64,000 nucleotides of DNA from an uncultured Rhodospirillales bacterium (GTDB taxonomy: Bacteria; Pseudomonadota; Alphaproteobacteria; Azospirillales; Azospirillaceae), in contig CAIYNU010000094.1 of the NCBI GenBank assembly GCA_903927615.1, positions 1 to 64,000 on the forward strand. Direction: 5' to 3'. The translations under genes were made by a program, and so were the position numbers. Under the pieces are notes generated by a model. That model saw only the letters and a list, made by a program, of their open reading frames with translations, ran no database searches and was not told where the DNA came from. Shown here in pieces: positions 21,133-43,185 of this stretch (positions within the stretch are counted from its first letter, which is position 1; every line of letters begins with the position of its first letter).

Positions 21133-21595
21133 CAGCCTGATGTCACGAACGGCCGGTGTCCCCTTGAACTGTCCGCGGCAACCGGCCGGCAGAAAGCCGC
21201 CGATCGTCGCCACGAGATTACCGAAGGATGGCGTATCGTTAAAGCCGTGCCACTGGCCACTGTCAATCGTCCTGATACCTAAAGCTGCGCAACACTCTGT
21301 CCTGCGGTCATCATCAGCCCAGGTATTGATAGATTTTTGGACCACACCCCACTCGTATTTGATCAAGAATGTGACCAGTTGACAGTCAAGGCCGCGGCGA
21401 TTAATGCTCGGTCTGCTTGGTAGCGGACGCTTGATGAGACGTGGCAAGTCTCGCAGTGTTGTGTGTGGCCGCAACGACGCCAACGTCAATGAGGCCAAAA
21501 CGATTTGATGATGGTCGGTGTTGCCGGAACCGGTATGCCGCGTTTCCGACCGACGGATCGTCACCATGACCGGTCGTGGACGGAAGGAAATCGCT
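21133..21595. other. Intergenic region upstream of the FAD/CNBD operon
   Basis: About 460 bases of lower GC than its surroundings, without a credible gene. It holds a candidate promoter at 21379-21407 and the ribosome-binding site for the next gene (GGAAGG upstream of the ATG at 21596). Several long frames read across it on the minus strand but have no protein-like composition. Confidence 0.45.
21379..21407 (+). promoter_or_regulatory. Candidate promoter for the FAD/CNBD operon
   Basis: TTGACA (21379-21384), a 17-base spacer, then TAATGC (21402-21407). The -35 box is perfect, the -10 is weak. It would give a leader of about 180 bases before the start at 21596. Confidence 0.35.
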
Positions 21596-22999
21596 ATGGA
21601 GTTGACCCAACACTCGCGGGTTGCTATTATTGGTGGTGGCCCCTCGGGTTCGCTGACGGCGTACTTCATGCTCGATATTGCCAGTCGCCTGGGCTTGCAT
21701 CTCAACATCGAAATCTTTGACTCTTCACAATTCACGGCTCAAGGTCCGAAGGGCTGCAACTATTGTGGCGGCGTTATCTCGGAAACCCTGGTCCAAATGC
21801 TGGCGATGGAGGGGATCACTCTGCCGCCGGACGTGGTCCAGCGCGGCATTGATTCGTACCAACTTCATACGGATCAGGGCTCCGCCGCCATTTCCACGCC
21901 GCTGGCGGAATTGCGGATCGCGTCTTTGTATCGCGGTTCCGGACCGCTGGATTGCGCCAAACGGAAGGCCTGCGGCGGCGCCGAACCGGTGATTTATCGC
22001 AGTCTGGATGGTTTCCTGCTGGATTTGGCGCTGAGTAAGGGCGCCACCCTGTTCCCCACCAAGGTCAACAAGGTGACGCGGGTCGGCAACCTGCCGATGG
22101 TTTTCCCCAGGGAGATGGAGCCCCGCTCGTACGACCTCGTCATCGGTGCCGTCGGCGTCAATGGCGGTGGGCTCAAGATTTTCGACGAGTCCGCCATCCG
22201 GTTTCGTCATCCCACCACCACCAAGGCGGTCATCACCGAAATCTACCTTGGCCGGTCCGAGGTCGACCGCTGTTTCGGCAGCACCATGCATGTCTTCGTC
22301 ACCCGCATCCCGCGGGTCAGCTTTGCCGCCATCATTCCCAAAGGGGAATACGTCACTGTCGTGATGCTGGGCCGGGCCTTGGACCGCGACACCGTCGTGA
22401 CGTTTCTCAACCACCCCACCGTCAAACAATGCTTCCCGGATGGCGTCGACCTGACCGCACGGTCCTGCTTCTGTCGGCCCGAGGTCAGTTTGGGAACGTC
22501 CTCGCCCGTTTGTGCCGACCGGGTGGCCCTGGTCGGCGATGCCGCGGTCAGCCGCCTGTATAAGGACGGCAACGGCGCCGCGTACCGAACCGCCAAGGCC
22601 CTGGCCACCGCCGCCATCATCCACGGCATCTCGCGAAAATCGTTGGAACGTTATTACGCGCCTGCCTGCCGCAAACTGTCGTTTGACAACACCATCGGCA
22701 AGACGGTGTTTCTGACCGTCAATCTGTTCAAGTGGATGCCAATCTTAAGCCGCGGCATGCTGGGCATGGTCCGGCGCGAACAAAGCCGGCAGGACCCCCG
22801 GCGGATGGATATGTCGTTGGTGCTCTGGGATGTTTATACCGGCTCCAACAGCTACAAATCCATTCTGCTGCGTTGTCTGGCGCCAAGATTCCTGCTGCGG
22901 TTGCTGGTGGAAAGCATCAAGTCCTTATTTGTCGTGGATAAGGCGGTTCGTGCGGCCCCCGTGGCCCCGCCCATGGCCACCGAGGGGCATGGGCCATGA
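21596..22999 (+). CDS. FAD-dependent oxidoreductase (geranylgeranyl-reductase-like)
   Basis: 467 residues from the ATG at 21596 (GGAAGG at 8 bases); an upstream ATG at 21518 is not needed. The Rossmann FAD motif VAIIGGGPSGS is at 9-19; the late FAD-ribityl motif is VALVGDAAVSRLYKDGNGAAYRTAKALATA. A cysteine pair in GCNYCGG (C54, C57) and a second in DCAKRKACGG (C120, C126) could form a redox disulfide or a metal site. The FAD fold is that of GGR/halogenase-like flavoproteins, which act on lipids, phenols or isoprenoids. The C-terminus is Leu/Arg-rich and amphipathic (FLLRLLVESIKSLFVVDKAV), suggesting contact with a membrane. It overlaps the next gene by 4 bases. Confidence 0.75.
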   Translation: MELTQHSRVAIIGGGPSGSLTAYFMLDIASRLGLHLNIEIFDSSQFTAQGPKGCNYCGGVISETLVQMLAMEGITLPPDVVQRGIDSYQLHTDQGSAAISTPLAELRIASLYRGSGPLDCAKRKACGGAEPVIYRSLDGFLLDLALSKGATLFPTKVNKVTRVGNLPMVFPREMEPRSYDLVIGAVGVNGGGLKIFDESAIRFRHPTTTKAVITEIYLGRSEVDRCFGSTMHVFVTRIPRVSFAAIIPKGEYVTVVMLGRALDRDTVVTFLNHPTVKQCFPDGVDLTARSCFCRPEVSLGTSSPVCADRVALVGDAAVSRLYKDGNGAAYRTAKALATAAIIHGISRKSLERYYAPACRKLSFDNTIGKTVFLTVNLFKWMPILSRGMLGMVRREQSRQDPRRMDMSLVLWDVYTGSNSYKSILLRCLAPRFLLRLLVESIKSLFVVDKAVRAAPVAPPMATEGHGP

Positions 23000-23409
23000 G
23001 ACATAATCAGCTCGGCAAGCTTTATAATGATGGTGATGTCATCGTACGCCTGGGCGACCCCGGCAACACCATGTTCCAGGTGCAGAAGGGATGCCTGGAC
23101 GTCATCGTCGATGATAATACCGGGCAGGTCATCGCGACTCTGGTATCGGGCGATTTCTTTGGTGAAATGTGTTTGTTCACTGGCGACCCCCGCTCGGCAA
23201 CCGTACGCTCGCGCGGCGAAAGCCGGGTATTGACCATCGACCGTGCGGCGTTCATCCGCCGTCTGTCGGAAGACCCCCTGCTCGCCTACCGCATTCTGGG
23301 GGCCATGTGTGACCGCTTGCGACGCCTGAACGAGTATAGCGTCGGCTACGAAGGCTATCTCTGCCCACCGGTTGACCGATCAACGGCCAAGGAGGACGCG
23401 ACGCCATGA
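22996..23409 (+). CDS. Small cyclic-nucleotide-binding-domain protein (canonical)
   Basis: 137 residues, essentially one CNBD with no DNA-binding domain. The phosphate-binding cassette is intact: GDFFGEMCLFTGDPRSATV with G56-E57 and R66, matching the Gly-Glu and Arg that hold the ribose and phosphate in CAP-type domains. The beta-roll before it (KLYNDGDVIVRLGDPGNTMFQVQKG) and the C-helix (AYRILGAMCDRLRRLNEYSV) are complete. It overlaps its neighbours by 4 bases on both sides (ATGA type). With no output domain of its own, it likely controls a partner encoded in the same operon. Ligand cAMP or cGMP is inferred. Confidence 0.85.
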   Translation: MRHNQLGKLYNDGDVIVRLGDPGNTMFQVQKGCLDVIVDDNTGQVIATLVSGDFFGEMCLFTGDPRSATVRSRGESRVLTIDRAAFIRRLSEDPLLAYRILGAMCDRLRRLNEYSVGYEGYLCPPVDRSTAKEDATP

Positions 23410-23810
23410 TCCTGGAAAAAGACCGGCTAGAGAGGTTATTGTTCCGCAACTATGAGGTTGGGAGTATCGTTCTGCCCCAGGGCTGCACCCAGCGGATCAT
23501 GGGCTTGATCGGCAAAGGCAGCGTCGAGGTTTTTTGCAAGACGCAGGAGGGCGAGGAGACGGTTTTCGGCGTCCTGACCAAAGGCGATACCTTCGGCACC
23601 TATTCTCTGTTCTACGATGTTCCCAGGCCGACGGGCATTCGCGTGCGGGATCGGGCGCGCATCGCGCTTTTGAACAGCAGGGACTTCATCCGCTATTCTC
23701 ACCACAACCCCACCATGACCTTCAACGTATTGACTGCCGCCAGCCGGCGGATTAACAATATCAATAGAGATTTATGCAAAGGAGGTCGGGTCAGTCCGAT
23801 TGAATGGTGA
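23406..23810 (+). CDS. Second CNBD-fold protein with degenerate cassette
   Basis: 134 residues with the same fold as the preceding gene product (beta-roll, cassette, C-helix), but the cassette reads DTFGTYSLFYDVPRPTGIRV. The Glu after the Gly is replaced by Thr (G64-T65), and the PRSAT of the first gene becomes PRPTG. The Arg is retained (R74). Loss of the ribose-binding Glu suggests no cyclic-nucleotide binding or a changed ligand. The C-terminus ends in a short basic-polar tail. Gene overlap 4 bases upstream and 7 downstream. A heterodimer with the first CNBD protein is inferred. Confidence 0.75.
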   Translation: MILEKDRLERLLFRNYEVGSIVLPQGCTQRIMGLIGKGSVEVFCKTQEGEETVFGVLTKGDTFGTYSLFYDVPRPTGIRVRDRARIALLNSRDFIRYSHHNPTMTFNVLTAASRRINNINRDLCKGGRVSPIEW

Positions 23811-24421
23811 CCTGTTTTATTAATGATTATGCCCGGAACGTTCGATTTCTATACCGTTCGACGATTCGGGTTTGGACTGGGCCATCTGAGTTCTTTGAAC
23901 TGGTCCGAACCACTAACCATCTCGGGATCGCTCTCGGCCTTCAGGTGTTGCGCTGGCTGCTTCATTCCGGAGTGACCACGGCGCATTTTGTGGTGGTCAA
24001 CCCGCCGGCGATGTTTCCGGTCCCGTTCGATCTTGATTTGGGACTCTACCGGTCTTGGGAGGTTTGGGGTTTTTTTCCCTTTGGCCTGGGCATGCTTGGG
24101 CTGATCGCCTGGGTGACGTGGCGGGTCGGGCGCCGTCGGGCCGGCCGTCCCATGAGCCTGGCCAAGACCGCGGAAGTCGTCTCGCTGGCCTGGTTCGCCC
24201 CCTGGTTGCCCACATTCCTGACCGATAATCTGTTGTTGTCGGCCGGATGGGCGATCCCCGTGGTCATCGTTCCCGCCCATACCGTGGTGGTGGGCCTGGA
24301 GGTTTGGATGACCGCTGTGGGGCTTCAGCAGGTCTTCGGCCTGTCCCGAGGTCCGGCCTGGCGGATAAGTCTGGCGGGTGGACTGATTTTTATGGCCCTG
24401 GCCGGTGCCGTGATCCGGTAG
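23804..24421 (+). CDS. Multi-pass membrane protein (Yip1-like), end of the CNBD operon
   Basis: 205 residues. A positively charged N-terminal helix (RNVRFLYRSTIRVW) and GPSEFFELV precede a hydrophobic segment (LGIALGLQVLRWLL), a pattern found at the start of Yip1-type proteins. Further hydrophobic segments lie at about residues 85-108 (FGLGMLGLIAWVTW), 122-145 (AEVVSLAWFAPWL), 150-170 (AIPVVIVPAHTVVVGLEVW) and 185-205 (LAGGLIFMALAGAVI), with Arg/Lys-rich loops between. It starts 7 bases before the stop of the second CNBD gene. It is the only membrane component, so the probable target or anchor of the two CNBD proteins. The Yip1 match is by eye and uncertain. Confidence 0.65.
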   Translation: MVTCFINDYARNVRFLYRSTIRVWTGPSEFFELVRTTNHLGIALGLQVLRWLLHSGVTTAHFVVVNPPAMFPVPFDLDLGLYRSWEVWGFFPFGLGMLGLIAWVTWRVGRRRAGRPMSLAKTAEVVSLAWFAPWLPTFLTDNLLLSAGWAIPVVIVPAHTVVVGLEVWMTAVGLQQVFGLSRGPAWRISLAGGLIFMALAGAVIR

Positions 24422-24445
24422 ACGACGGCAACCTCAACGCCCGCA

Positions 24446-24466
24446 CGGATCAGGTATAATGATCCG
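24446..24466. repeat. Small inverted repeat between convergent genes
   Basis: CGGATC (24446-24451) and GATCCG (24461-24466) face each other across 9 AT-rich bases between the membrane-protein gene and rnhA. No T-run follows, so a terminator role is weak. Confidence 0.3.
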
Positions 24467-24488
24467 GCAGGCCACTCTCATTCATCCT

Positions 24489-24983
24489 TCAGGCGCCCGA
24501 CAATCCCGCCTTGCGCCCTTCGGCGATGGCGGCCCGGGCCAAGGCGTCGGCCCGTTCGTTTTCGGGATGGCCCGAGTGACCGCGCACCCAGTGGAAGGCG
24601 ATGGCATGGCGCTGCTGGGCCAGGTCCAGGCGTTCCCACAGGTCACGGTTCTTGACCGGTTTGCGGTCCGCGGTTTGCCAGCCTTTGGCCTTCCACCCTT
24701 TGATCCACTTGGTGATACCGTCGCGCAGATACTGACTGTCGGTATGCAGGCGCACCTGAAGCGGCCGCTTCAGCGTCTCCAGGGCAACGATGGCGGCCAG
24801 CAACTCCATGCGATTGTTGGTGGTCAGCGGCTCGAAACCGTTCAGTTCCTTATCGACGGCACCATAGCGCAAAATCGCGCCCCAGCCGCCCGGTCCCGGG
24901 TTGCCGCTGCACGCGCCATCGGTGAAAATGTCGCAGATGCGACCCTCGGGAGTCTCTGAAGACTGTAAAGACGCTTCGGTCAT
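24489..24983 (-). CDS. rnhA: Ribonuclease HI
   Basis: 164 residues. It cuts the RNA strand of RNA-DNA hybrids. The acidic active-site residues are visible: D22 in [15 protein letters not shown]60 in [11 protein letters not shown]82 in HTDSQYL, and a final Asp in [11 protein letters not shown] basic handle ([25 protein letters not shown]) lies between. Full length with a 16-residue N-terminal extension. It is transcribed leftward right after the thrB gene (stop/start gap 31 bases), a frequent thrB-rnhA pairing in this class. Confidence 0.95.
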
Positions 24984-39604: not shown

Positions 39605-41221
39605 TTACGCCTCGTCCCCCGGCGGCTCCGCCATCACCGCCAGAAAGGCCACAACCACCGCCGGATCGAAACGGGTCCCGGCCATGGCCTGAATCATGGT
39701 GATGGCCTGATCCTGAGAAAAAGCCGGGCGGTAGGGCCGGTCGGAAACCAGCGCCTGAAAAGTATCGGCAACAGCGACGACGCGAGCGACCATGGGTATC
39801 GCCTGGCCGCTCAGGCCATGGGGATAACCCGAGCCATCAAAATTTTCATGATGGAACAACGCGATCTCGGCACCCAACTCAAGGTAGGTCAGACCATGGA
39901 CCATACTGCAAGCGCGGACCAGAAAGGCGTGACCGCGCACGGTATGCTGTTGCATAATCAGTCGCTCGTCGGCAGTCAACGGGCCGGGCTTGCGCAAAAT
40001 GTGTTCGGCCACGGTGATGTTGCCGACATCGTGAAGCATCGAGGCCAGGCCGATCAGCTCCAGAAAAGGCGGATCGATGCTCTCGCGGAACCCACGCTCG
40101 GCGTGGAGCGTGCGGGCAATCCGTTCGGCGAGGCCCGCAAGGCGCAAACTTTCCGAACGGGTCTCGTGAGACGCGGCCGTCGCGGTGTCGGCGTCCACCT
40201 GCGCGGTTTCGGCAATGTCGGCCAGGGTCGCGACGGTTGCCTCCTGGGCCCTCAGTAATTGCTCGTAAAGATGGATATTTTCGAAACCGATGGTGATCTT
40301 GTCGCAAAACAGCGCGATCAACCGCTGGTCAAGTTCACTCAACGGCCGGTTGGAACTCATATAAACCACATTCTCGCGGTCGGTCAGAGTCTGGATGTAC
40401 ATGGCGCAGTGATCCTGGCCGAACACATTTCGACGTTGCGCCAGGCAGTCCTGAACCGTCGCCACCACCCCGGCCTCGACCACCGTGCCGAGCGGCTCGT
40501 TGATCAGAGCCTCGAAACGCCCGGAACCGGCCAGCACATAAAGGCCGTTGCGATCACGACGGCGAACGTCACCGCGCTTCACGCACAAAATGGCGTCCGA
40601 AGCGGCCCCGACGATGGCGCTCAGTTGCGTAAACACACCGGCCGCGAACAGTTTCATCGACCTCGTCTTGGAAAGCGAGCTTGATGCCTCGATAATCTTT
40701 TCCAGGCCACGCCGGTTGGCGTCGATGGTGATAAGATCCTCGTAAGAGCGTAAGGCCGCCACGGTACAGGTGAAGAGCTGCTGGGCCATCAACTGCGTCT
40801 TGGCCTTGTAATCGTTGATGTCGTACTCAAGGATCACGCTTCGTTCCGGCGCCTGCCCGGGCTGGCCGGTGCGCAGAATGATGCGGACATGGCGGTTGCC
40901 CATCACCTCGCGGATGTGATGAACCAGTTTCAGCCCGGCATCGTCGGTTTCCATCACCACGTCGAGCAGAATAACCGCGATATCGCGTTCCCGCTCCAGA
41001 ATCCTGATGGCCTCGGCCGCTGAATAGGCACTAAAGAACTGGGTGGTGCGGCCTTTAAAGATGAAGTCGGCCAGCACCAACCGCGTGATCGAATGGACCT
41101 CGGGTTCGTCGTCCACCACCAGCATTTTCCATCCGACCGGCGCCGTGCTCAGGCGGGCAGCTTCGACCGCGACATCGTCGTCTTCGTCTTCGAAGAACAG
41201 GTCGTCGTCATCATCAGTCAT
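39605..41221 (-). CDS. Response regulator with DUF3369 and HD-GYP domain
   Basis: 538 residues; start is the ATG ending at 41221, though a GTG four codons up is possible. An N-terminal acidic tail is followed by a receiver domain (MLVVDDEPEVHS, ILLDVVMETDDAG with the phospho-Asp), a DUF3369 GAF-like region, and an HD-GYP domain. The latter has MLHDVGNITVAEHIL, HTVRGHAFL, and the signature HHENFDGSGYPHGLSGQAI, so c-di-GMP hydrolysis is likely. Such proteins link phosphorelay to motility. The sensor kinase is not adjacent. Confidence 0.9.
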   Translation of the reverse strand: MTDDDDDLFFEDEDDDVAVEAARLSTAPVGWKMLVVDDEPEVHSITRLVLADFIFKGRTTQFFSAYSAAEAIRILERERDIAVILLDVVMETDDAGLKLVHHIREVMGNRHVRIILRTGQPGQAPERSVILEYDINDYKAKTQLMAQQLFTCTVAALRSYEDLITIDANRRGLEKIIEASSSLSKTRSMKLFAAGVFTQLSAIVGAASDAILCVKRGDVRRRDRNGLYVLAGSGRFEALINEPLGTVVEAGVVATVQDCLAQRRNVFGQDHCAMYIQTLTDRENVVYMSSNRPLSELDQRLIALFCDKITIGFENIHLYEQLLRAQEATVATLADIAETAQVDADTATAASHETRSESLRLAGLAERIARTLHAERGFRESIDPPFLELIGLASMLHDVGNITVAEHILRKPGPLTADERLIMQQHTVRGHAFLVRACSMVHGLTYLELGAEIALFHHENFDGSGYPHGLSGQAIPMVARVVAVADTFQALVSDRPYRPAFSQDQAITMIQAMAGTRFDPAVVVAFLAVMAEPPGDEA

Positions 41222-41334
41222 GTGCACATGCACTCTCTTCCGCAGGGCAACGGGCGACCGGAAGACGCCACAAGCGGGGCTTTACGCCCGTTCCTCACGC
41301 TATCACCAATGGACACCGTTAGCACGCCCCGGCA

Positions 41335-42549
41335 TCACCCGGTTCCATCGTCAGCGTCGGCATGCATGCGCCGCTTGGCCTCGGCATGGATGGCCAGGGT
41401 CATGTCCGGATAGCGGGCCGCAAGGTCACGGAAATCCGCAATATCGAGCATCAGTAACTGGCACGGCCCGGTGGCAATCGCGGTGGCGCTGCGCCGGGCG
41501 CCGGTGATTAACGCCATTTCGCCGAAAAAATCGCCGTCCTTAAGATGAAAACTGGTGGTGGGCGTGGTCTGTATTTCAATATCGCCGCTGACGATGAAAT
41601 ACATGCAGTCTCCGATATCGCCCCGGCGCACCACGACGCTGCCGGAGCCGACCTCGCGCGGTCGCAGACGCTGGGCGACATCGGCAATCACCAGCGCGCC
41701 GACATTCTGGAACAGCGGCACCCGCGCCACTAGATCCCAAGTCTTGAGAAACGCCCGCCGGCGCATTTCCTGAGAAAAGCCGGTGGCCAGAATGCCGGCC
41801 CACAGCGAAAACACCAGGATGCCGCACATCATCACCAACCCGGCCAGCATCCGGCCGGGGACCGTCACCGGCGTCACGTCCCCGTAGCCCGTGGTGGTAA
41901 GGGTGACGATGGTCCACCAGAGCGCCTTGGGCACGGTGCCGAAGACGTCGGGTTGCGCGGCCCCTTCCAACAGATGAGCCAGCACCGCCGCACAGAGCAA
42001 AACCACCAGAAACGCGAACAGGCCGCCGATCAGCGGTTCCGCCTCGAGCCGGATCACCCGCCACAACACCGCCAGCCCCGGGGAATAGCGGGCCAGTTTG
42101 AACACCCATAACACGCCGAACATCTCGGCCTCGGGATTGGGCACGCCGGCCAACCAGGCGGCGGGAATCAGCACCGCCCCCATCAGGTCGACCAGACCGC
42201 GGGCGGTGATCGCCCAGCGCAAGCGCAACCGGCCAGGCGAATCACCGTGGCCGACCCACATGTCCGGAATGACCCACAAGCGCACCAGATATTCGACGAT
42301 GAAGGCCGCCAGCGGCACCGCCACCAGCAGGTTTTCGCCCGGCAACGCCCCGGCTTCCGAAGCCAGCAAAACACCCGCCAGGCCGGTGACGATAAAGGCG
42401 ATATTCACCGTCCGGGTCACCCGCGCCCAAAGCCGTCGCGACGCCGGATCCAGTAAACCGGCCACCCACCGCCGCGACCGGGCCCGGGTGTTCAAAGCCG
42501 TCTCACCGCCCCCCAAAAAACGTCCCAGCATCAATAGCCATGCTCCCAT
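41335..42549 (-). CDS. Cyclic-nucleotide-gated potassium channel
   Basis: 404 residues from the ATG ending at 42549; the longer open frame upstream is Arg/Gly/Pro-rich. Six hydrophobic segments are present, with a positively charged fourth segment (VLWVFKLARYSPGLAVLWRVIRLEA) and the pore with TTTGYGD, the K+ selectivity filter, in ALWWTIVTLTTTGYGDVTP. The C-terminal CNBD has GDFFGEMALITGARRSATA, so intact Gly-Glu and Arg. The layout is that of MloK1. It converges with nothing; a phosphoribosyltransferase gene diverges from it. Confidence 0.9.
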   Translation of the reverse strand: MGAWLLMLGRFLGGGETALNTRARSRRWVAGLLDPASRRLWARVTRTVNIAFIVTGLAGVLLASEAGALPGENLLVAVPLAAFIVEYLVRLWVIPDMWVGHGDSPGRLRLRWAITARGLVDLMGAVLIPAAWLAGVPNPEAEMFGVLWVFKLARYSPGLAVLWRVIRLEAEPLIGGLFAFLVVLLCAAVLAHLLEGAAQPDVFGTVPKALWWTIVTLTTTGYGDVTPVTVPGRMLAGLVMMCGILVFSLWAGILATGFSQEMRRRAFLKTWDLVARVPLFQNVGALVIADVAQRLRPREVGSGSVVVRRGDIGDCMYFIVSGDIEIQTTPTTSFHLKDGDFFGEMALITGARRSATAIATGPCQLLMLDIADFRDLAARYPDMTLAIHAEAKRRMHADADDGTG

Positions 42550-42678
42550 TGCGGCGGCTGAGCTTAACGTGGACGATGGGAGCCTGCCAACTGGCAACGC
42601 AGATGAGTGCCCAACCCCCGGACGGTTGCCAGACTGGGAACACCCCTGCCCCGCCCTTTCACCGGAGACCCGTCGCCC

Positions 42679-43185
42679 GTGTCCGATTCGCCCCCCGCCT
42701 GCCCCCATCCGATCAGCCGCCGGGACTTCCCGGTGTCGTGGGAAGAATTGCACCGCACGGCCAGGGCCCTGGCCTGGCGACTGATGGACTTGGGTCCGTG
42801 GCAGGGGATCGTCGCGATCAGTCGCGGCGGCCTGGTCCCGGCGGCGATCGTGGCCCGGGAACTGGATATCCGGTTGGTCGACACCATCTGTGTCGCCAGT
42901 TATGAACACCAGACTCGGGGCGAAGCCCGGGTGCTCAAAGCACGGGACGGTGACGGTGACGGCTGGGTGATCATCGACGATCTGGTCGACACCGGCCGAA
43001 CGGCGGCGGTGGTGCGGCGCCTGCTGCCCAAGGCCCATTTTGCCTCGGTTTACGCCAAGCCCGCCGGACGGCCGCTGGTCGATACCTTTATCACCGAGGT
43101 CAGCCAGGATACCTGGATTTTTTTTCCGTGGGATATCGAGCCCCAATTCAGCCCGCCGATCATCGACCGTCGGCCCGACCGCTGA
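42679..43185 (+). CDS. gpt: Xanthine-guanine phosphoribosyltransferase
   Basis: 168 residues from the GTG at 42679 (GGAGA upstream). It salvages xanthine and guanine with PRPP. The match to E. coli Gpt is close: the [16 protein letters not shown] start, [23 protein letters not shown], the PRPP loop [32 protein letters not shown] and a TWIFFPWD end. It lies between the channel gene and an HD-domain gene. Confidence 0.93.

Follow-up and report, generated by a model that had tools for sequence, protein, structure and literature searches.

Linkage of cyclic nucleotide-binding domain proteins to an unnamed flavoprotein family and a membrane protein in distant bacteria

Introduction

Cyclic-nucleotide signalling in bacteria is known mostly through transcription factors. 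In the mycobacterial acetyltransferase Pat and in the regulatory domains of PKA and PKG, by contrast, the cyclic nucleotide-binding domain (CNBD) controls an enzyme and not DNA binding. A stretch of 64,000 nucleotides from an uncultured Rhodospirillales bacterium (hereafter, the window) contains a run of four overlapping genes in which two short CNBD proteins, CN1 and CN2, stand between an FAD-dependent oxidoreductase (the FAD protein) and a membrane protein (MEM). Here we ask whether these genes form one functional unit, how far this unit is conserved, and what a cyclic-nucleotide signal might act on in it.

Results

Organization of the four-gene unit

The first-pass annotation had reported that the four genes overlap by 4, 4 and 7 bases, and this was confirmed at 21596-24421 (Table 1). 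The FAD/CN1 and CN1/CN2 overlaps are both ATGA, and the longer one lies between CN2 and MEM. MEM could start either at ATG 23804, which is directly preceded by an in-frame stop, or at the next codon, in which case the overlaps would be 4, 4 and 4 bases. The start of the FAD gene is backed by relatives that share an M-E/Q-L-T N-terminus, and a strong AAGGAGG is located just 5' of the CN2 start. The same 4-base overlap was found between FAD and CN1 in three relatives (L002, L005 and L045) and between CN1 and CN2 in L005, and the overlaps are thus conserved rather than peculiar to this contig. We infer that translation of the four genes is coupled.

Table 1. Features of the four-gene unit and of the region that contains it (window positions)
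Feature	Position	Strand	Description
FAD gene	21596..22999	+	467 aa; FAD-dependent oxidoreductase, unnamed family; GxGxxG, invariant CxxC and CxC
CN1	22996..23409	+	137 aa; free-standing CNBD, canonical phosphate-binding cassette FGEMCLFTGDPRSATV, GDPG loop
CN2	23406..23810	+	134 aa; free-standing CNBD, degenerate cassette FGTYSLFYDVPRPTGI
MEM	23804..24421	+	205 aa; Yip1-like multi-pass membrane protein; alternative start GTG 23807
Congener-absent region	21133..24493		~3.36 kb; from the end of the Sel1-repeat gene (21132) to rnhA
rnhA	24489-24983	-	Downstream border of the ~3.36 kb region

A flavoprotein family without a name

The two cysteine pairs noted earlier in the FAD protein, C54-x2-C57 and C291-x-C293, are invariant in 33 aligned sequences, as are about 60 residues of the family altogether. 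Both pairs are also present in near outgroup flavoproteins and therefore belong to the enzyme, not to the CNBD linkage. Three such outgroup proteins (L141, L142 and L143) have the same cysteine signature and a conserved neighbourhood with no CNBD at all, the neighbours in L141 being FtsB-like, GGDEF, FeoB-like and PEGA-like genes (named by eye); a fourth (L144, 8055-10127) carries a C-terminal extension of ~225 aa in which no Pfam match was found.

No Pfam family matched the window flavoprotein, and Pyr_redox gave no match in it at E values up to 1. All 33 aligned sequences matched the GG-red-SF and QhpG models, in every case below the cut-off; weak halogenase-like matches also occurred among them, and 6 of the 33 had weak matches to Pyr_redox. 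A search of solved structures with the sequence of the FAD protein alone returned no match, and the family profile retrieved halogenases and hydroxylases from the PDB. The AlphaFold model, built from six sequences, has a mean pLDDT of 55 and shows a generic FAD/PHBH-type fold only; structure comparison of this weak model, used for fold class only, pointed to the same halogenase/hydroxylase class. The FAD domain is thus closest, in sequence and fold, to flavin-dependent monooxygenases and halogenases (QhpG, PltM and KMO), although the matches are partial or of low confidence and the cysteine pairs and linkage differ.

Geranylgeranyl reductase was considered as an identity for the FAD protein and rejected. 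Its TIGR02032 score (24.9 bits) is far under the curated cut-off of 158.8, and YxWxFP, the substrate motif of geranylgeranyl reductases (PMC6309074, PMC10821996), is absent, for which reason the protein was not filed in this class; at the probable place of the motif it has VSFAAIIPKGEY, of which only P-K is invariant. What it has in common with the superfamily (TIGR02032; archaeal GGR, BchP/ChlP) is the FAD fold, a Cys-GG after the Rossmann unit and the LxGD FAD motif. The second of these is GCNYCGG with the invariant C57, which by the motif is a candidate equivalent of the active-site Cys that GGR enzymes have behind the flavin, and the third is LVGD with invariant G314 and D315. In contrast to this superfamily, the window protein lacks GGG as well as YxWxFP, possesses the extra CxxC and CxC and is linked to CNBDs.

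An active and a degenerate CNBD

CN1 and CN2 matched PF00027 with 73.8 and 47.9 bits, respectively (cut-off 27.5), and nothing else convincingly. The C-terminal HTH of CRP/FNR regulators is absent from both, which consist of the CNBD only, in agreement with their earlier description as free-standing CNBD proteins without a DNA-binding domain. Canonical CNBDs are recognized by a phosphate-binding cassette and a co-evolving loop Gly (Kannan et al. 2007, PMC2246266). CN1 has both, the Gly lying with GDPG; within the window clade it retains the residues typical of cAMP-binding CNBDs (Glu, Arg, the Ser-Ala pair and the loop Gly), and the PDB chains nearest to it are domains of cGMP/cAMP-dependent kinases. 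CN2 has lost the Glu and the Ser-Ala pair and kept the Arg in all four genomes with tandem CNBDs, and the window CN2 additionally lacks the loop Gly and does not have a canonical cassette. The combination of a canonical CN1 with a degenerate CN2 was observed in each of these four genomes, which form one supported clade. It points to an active/degenerate pair of CNBDs, in which cyclic-nucleotide binding looks possible for CN1 but not for CN2.

Beyond the CNBD, at residues ~115-122, CN1 has a C-terminal tail, VGYEGYL, that L005 shares unchanged and L045 has in a similar form (AGYAGYQ); it is possibly a docking tail.

Many other CNBDs of the family have non-canonical cassettes (for example, those of L003, L004, L014, L126 and L041). 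Because several relatives lack the canonical cassette, cyclic-nucleotide binding cannot be general to the module and may be confined to certain clades. The host genome contains six class III cyclase matches. No cyclase gene was consistently linked to the module, the single case being L133, in a scan that was queried with the cyclases of the host itself and could miss distant ones. Elsewhere in the window, a CNBD ion channel (Ion_trans with a C-terminal PF00027) is encoded at 41335-43146 on the minus strand, adjoined by a DUF3369/HD-GYP response regulator at 39605-41233 on the same strand.

The membrane protein

Hydropathy analysis revealed 4-6 hydrophobic stretches in each of seven MEM relatives, which fits the multi-pass membrane label originally given to the fourth gene. 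The window MEM did not match Yip1 (PF04893; cut-off 28.6 bits), and two of the seven relatives gave weak matches, of which that of L002 is nearly whole-length (19.4 bits over residues 1-170 of 173); MEM differs from Yip1 domain proteins in its dedicated CNBD linkage. MEM was found in 28 of 48 Magnetococcia. Of 27 intact MEM copies, a CNBD is adjacent or fused in 20, and the flavoprotein is there too in 14. In four genomes (G071, G073, G079 and G080), the flavoprotein gene is separate, with the paired or fused CNBD and MEM encoded on a different contig.

Lateral acquisition by the host lineage

The first-pass annotation had expected conservation across Rhodospirillales. This was not observed: the unit is present in the window genome and absent from the other 81 of the 82 genomes searched in the order, and the flavoprotein was not found among 58 other nearest genomes. 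The clearest of three short gaps is that of congener G002, in which 60 bases separate the Sel1-repeat gene (window end 21132) from downstream sequence that matches rnhA (window 24494); the unit is likewise missing from congeners G001 and G003. The G+C content of the ~3.36 kb region is 54-64%, compared with ~66-74% upstream and 62-67% downstream. It includes 463 bp between the Sel1-repeat and FAD genes (21133-21595) that are likewise absent from congeners and hold long minus-strand open frames; one 85-aa piece examined for a transposase remnant had no Pfam match. The nearest flavoprotein relative is in a Magnetococcales MAG (65-66% identity), and that of a gammaproteobacterial MAG is 60% identical. 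Searches for the unit in plasmids and in other genomes of the order of this gammaproteobacterium found none. Taken together, the unit is evidently foreign to the host lineage and laterally acquired.

A conserved neighbourhood in distant bacteria

In searches beyond the order, the FAD-CNBD linkage recurs; the full four-gene order was found only in the window and the gammaproteobacterial MAG (L002). In the latter, the complete set is arranged as in the window (FAD 60%, CN1 59%, CN2 38% and MEM 45% identity), and two Magnetococcales loci (L005 and L008) have FAD-CN1-CN2 without MEM. The flavoprotein family was identified in 39 of 48 Magnetococcia genomes, mostly as two paralogous copies. In the phylum of a Pseudodesulfovibrio relative, 19 of 297 genomes had matches, and approximately half of these genomes carry the family proper, which scores higher and is usually linked to a CNBD. 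Sampling 398 genomes across the phylum identified the family in 39 besides the window, and those with contig coordinates compared were Magnetococcia already counted.

A CNBD gene lies within 1.6 kb of 42 of the 56 full-length flavoproteins (score >450 bits), versus none of the 10 nearest, lower-scoring outgroup flavoproteins. Some of the 14 members without an adjacent CNBD are at contig ends or have short flanks. Genomes contain 5-33 CNBD matches each, which would make chance adjacency a matter of a few percent. It should be noted that the Magnetococcia members are related and these counts are not independent events; CNBD linkage is present in all main branches of the ingroup tree. Flavoprotein, CNBD proteins and membrane protein thus belong to a conserved bacterial module.

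Gene fusions and partner domains

Two kinds of fusion were observed. In one genome (L081/L129, on a 2.3 Mb contig), FAD and a C-terminal CNBD form one protein of 592 aa, and in two others (L198 and L201), CNBD and MEM form one protein of ~340 aa. By the gene-fusion argument, such proteins suggest a physical FAD-CNBD-MEM assembly, for which the fusions, the frequent adjacency of MEM to a CNBD and the separation of CNBD-MEM from the flavoprotein on different contigs offer the strongest grounds. The proposal that the four genes constitute one functional unit is supported by these fusions, the distant conserved neighbourhood and the conserved overlaps.

The CNBD partner in Magnetococcia, Desulfobacterota-type genomes and the gammaproteobacterial MAG is either free-standing or fused to GGDEF, HD-GYP (HD_5), GAF or PAS. 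Partners of 280-320 aa that had been considered as tandem CNBDs are actually a CNBD with GGDEF, GAF, PAS or HD-GYP. Group A loci of Magnetococcia show varied combinations of an upstream CNBD-GGDEF gene, a downstream M48/CAAX-protease-like gene and a downstream GGDEF-EAL gene, and some group B loci have an upstream gene with the metallo-beta-lactamase fold. In the Desulfobacterota-type branch, L131 (8063-10909) is a natural fusion of an SDR-DUF2867 protein with the flavoprotein; an SDR of this type is adjacent to the flavoprotein in L004 and within several kb of it in L130 and L132. Beside L133 lies a Polyketide_cyc2/lipid-transport protein.

Discussion

The original suggestion for this locus, that a redox or lipid-modifying enzyme is the target of a cyclic-nucleotide signal, remains plausible. 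The mechanism we put forward tentatively, with a little less than even confidence, is that CN1 switches a membrane-held flavin oxidoreductase in response to a cyclic nucleotide and that CN2 is its non-sensing partner. The oxidoreductase, related to the geranylgeranyl-reductase/flavin-monooxygenase class, would be kept at the membrane with the Yip1-like protein through the CNBD subunits. CN1 would take up cAMP or cGMP, and its conformational change would turn the flavoenzyme on or off. CN2 would be a duplicated CNBD past nucleotide sensing, with a structural or inhibitory role, perhaps as one half of a heterodimer with CN1. The substrate would most likely be hydrophobic and membrane-derived (an isoprenoid, quinone or lipid), at which the GG-red-SF matches of all 33 flavoproteins, the SDR-DUF2867 fusion and neighbours and the Polyketide_cyc2 protein beside L133 hint. 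The comparisons above show conservation, linkage, fusions, the retention and loss of motifs and the absence of the unit from congeners, whereas the ligand, the complex, the substrate and the direction in which control runs are our inferences.

Several observations could be read differently. If the flavoprotein were a redox sensor whose state is relayed to the CNBD protein, the latter would drive a second-messenger output or, here, MEM. Such a reverse flow would suit the GGDEF, HD-GYP, GAF and PAS domains on the CNBD partner in many relatives, the GGDEF-EAL genes downstream at some group A loci and the frequency of non-canonical CNBDs. However, the family retains enzyme-like flavin motifs and possible substrate motifs among its ~60 invariant residues, neither the window unit nor the direct FAD-CNBD fusion has an output domain, and several of the partner GGDEF domains appear degenerate by eye; we regard this flow as unlikely. 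The non-canonical cassettes in many relatives are also compatible with CN1 and CN2 being structural adaptors only, the CNBD fold being a docking scaffold that bridges flavoprotein and MEM with no nucleotide signal. The degenerate CN2 of all four tandem genomes and the physical bridging implied by CNBD-MEM and FAD-CNBD fusions agree with this, whereas the Glu, Arg, Ser-Ala pair and loop Gly of cAMP-binding CNBDs kept by CN1 of the window clade do not, and we give such adaptors somewhat less credence again.

The absence of the ~3.36 kb region from congeners might even suggest an incidental string of genes, that is, a mobile fragment with fortuitous overlaps. This is contradicted by the conserved linkage, since the same association is seen again, with overlaps and fusions, in deep lineages, and we consider it highly improbable.

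How does the proposed switch on a membrane-held flavoenzyme relate to known systems? Pyridine nucleotide-disulphide oxidoreductases linked to tandem CNBDs have been described as 'Bact_Pyrredox' (Kannan et al. 2007, PMC2246266), and CNBD-thioredoxin reductase is another CNBD-coupled flavoprotein (PMC6544261). They resemble the window unit in that a CNBD is coupled to an FAD oxidoreductase, but their partner is a Pyr_redox domain in the same chain, whereas the window unit has a flavoprotein of another family, usually as a separate gene, and a Yip1-like membrane partner. In the window, FAD protein and CNBDs are encoded by separate genes, and a C-terminal CNBD in the same chain was found only in the relative L081. 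Enzyme-coupled CNBDs have precedent in CNBD-thioredoxin reductases and the CNBD acetyltransferase Pat. Pat and PKA/PKG carry the CNBD within the enzyme chain or on a kinase subunit, and no flavoenzyme is involved. A limited literature search found no description of a CNBD-flavoprotein-Yip1 or CNBD-GG-reductase system, which, together with the family searches, agrees with the initial impression that no named system has this four-gene layout. CNBD-coupled flavoproteins as such are known; the different flavoprotein family, the separate CNBD subunits and the membrane partner set the window unit apart from them.

The module joins CNBDs, by linkage and fusion, to an unnamed flavoenzyme family and MEM, which makes enzyme-level control testable, and CN1 and CN2 offer a natural comparison of an active with a degenerate CNBD. 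Its occurrence in most Magnetococcia, together with its coupling to GGDEF, HD-GYP, GAF and PAS, suggests a general connection between signalling and redox chemistry. In its broadest form, which we hold to be doubtful, the proposal is of an undescribed membrane complex that would have spread laterally between phyla. Its flavoenzymes, a new family with membrane isoprenoids, quinones or lipids as substrates, would be under the direct control of a cyclic nucleotide or, in relatives, of a CNBD protein linked to c-di-GMP. If true, this would represent post-translational second-messenger control of lipid redox chemistry.
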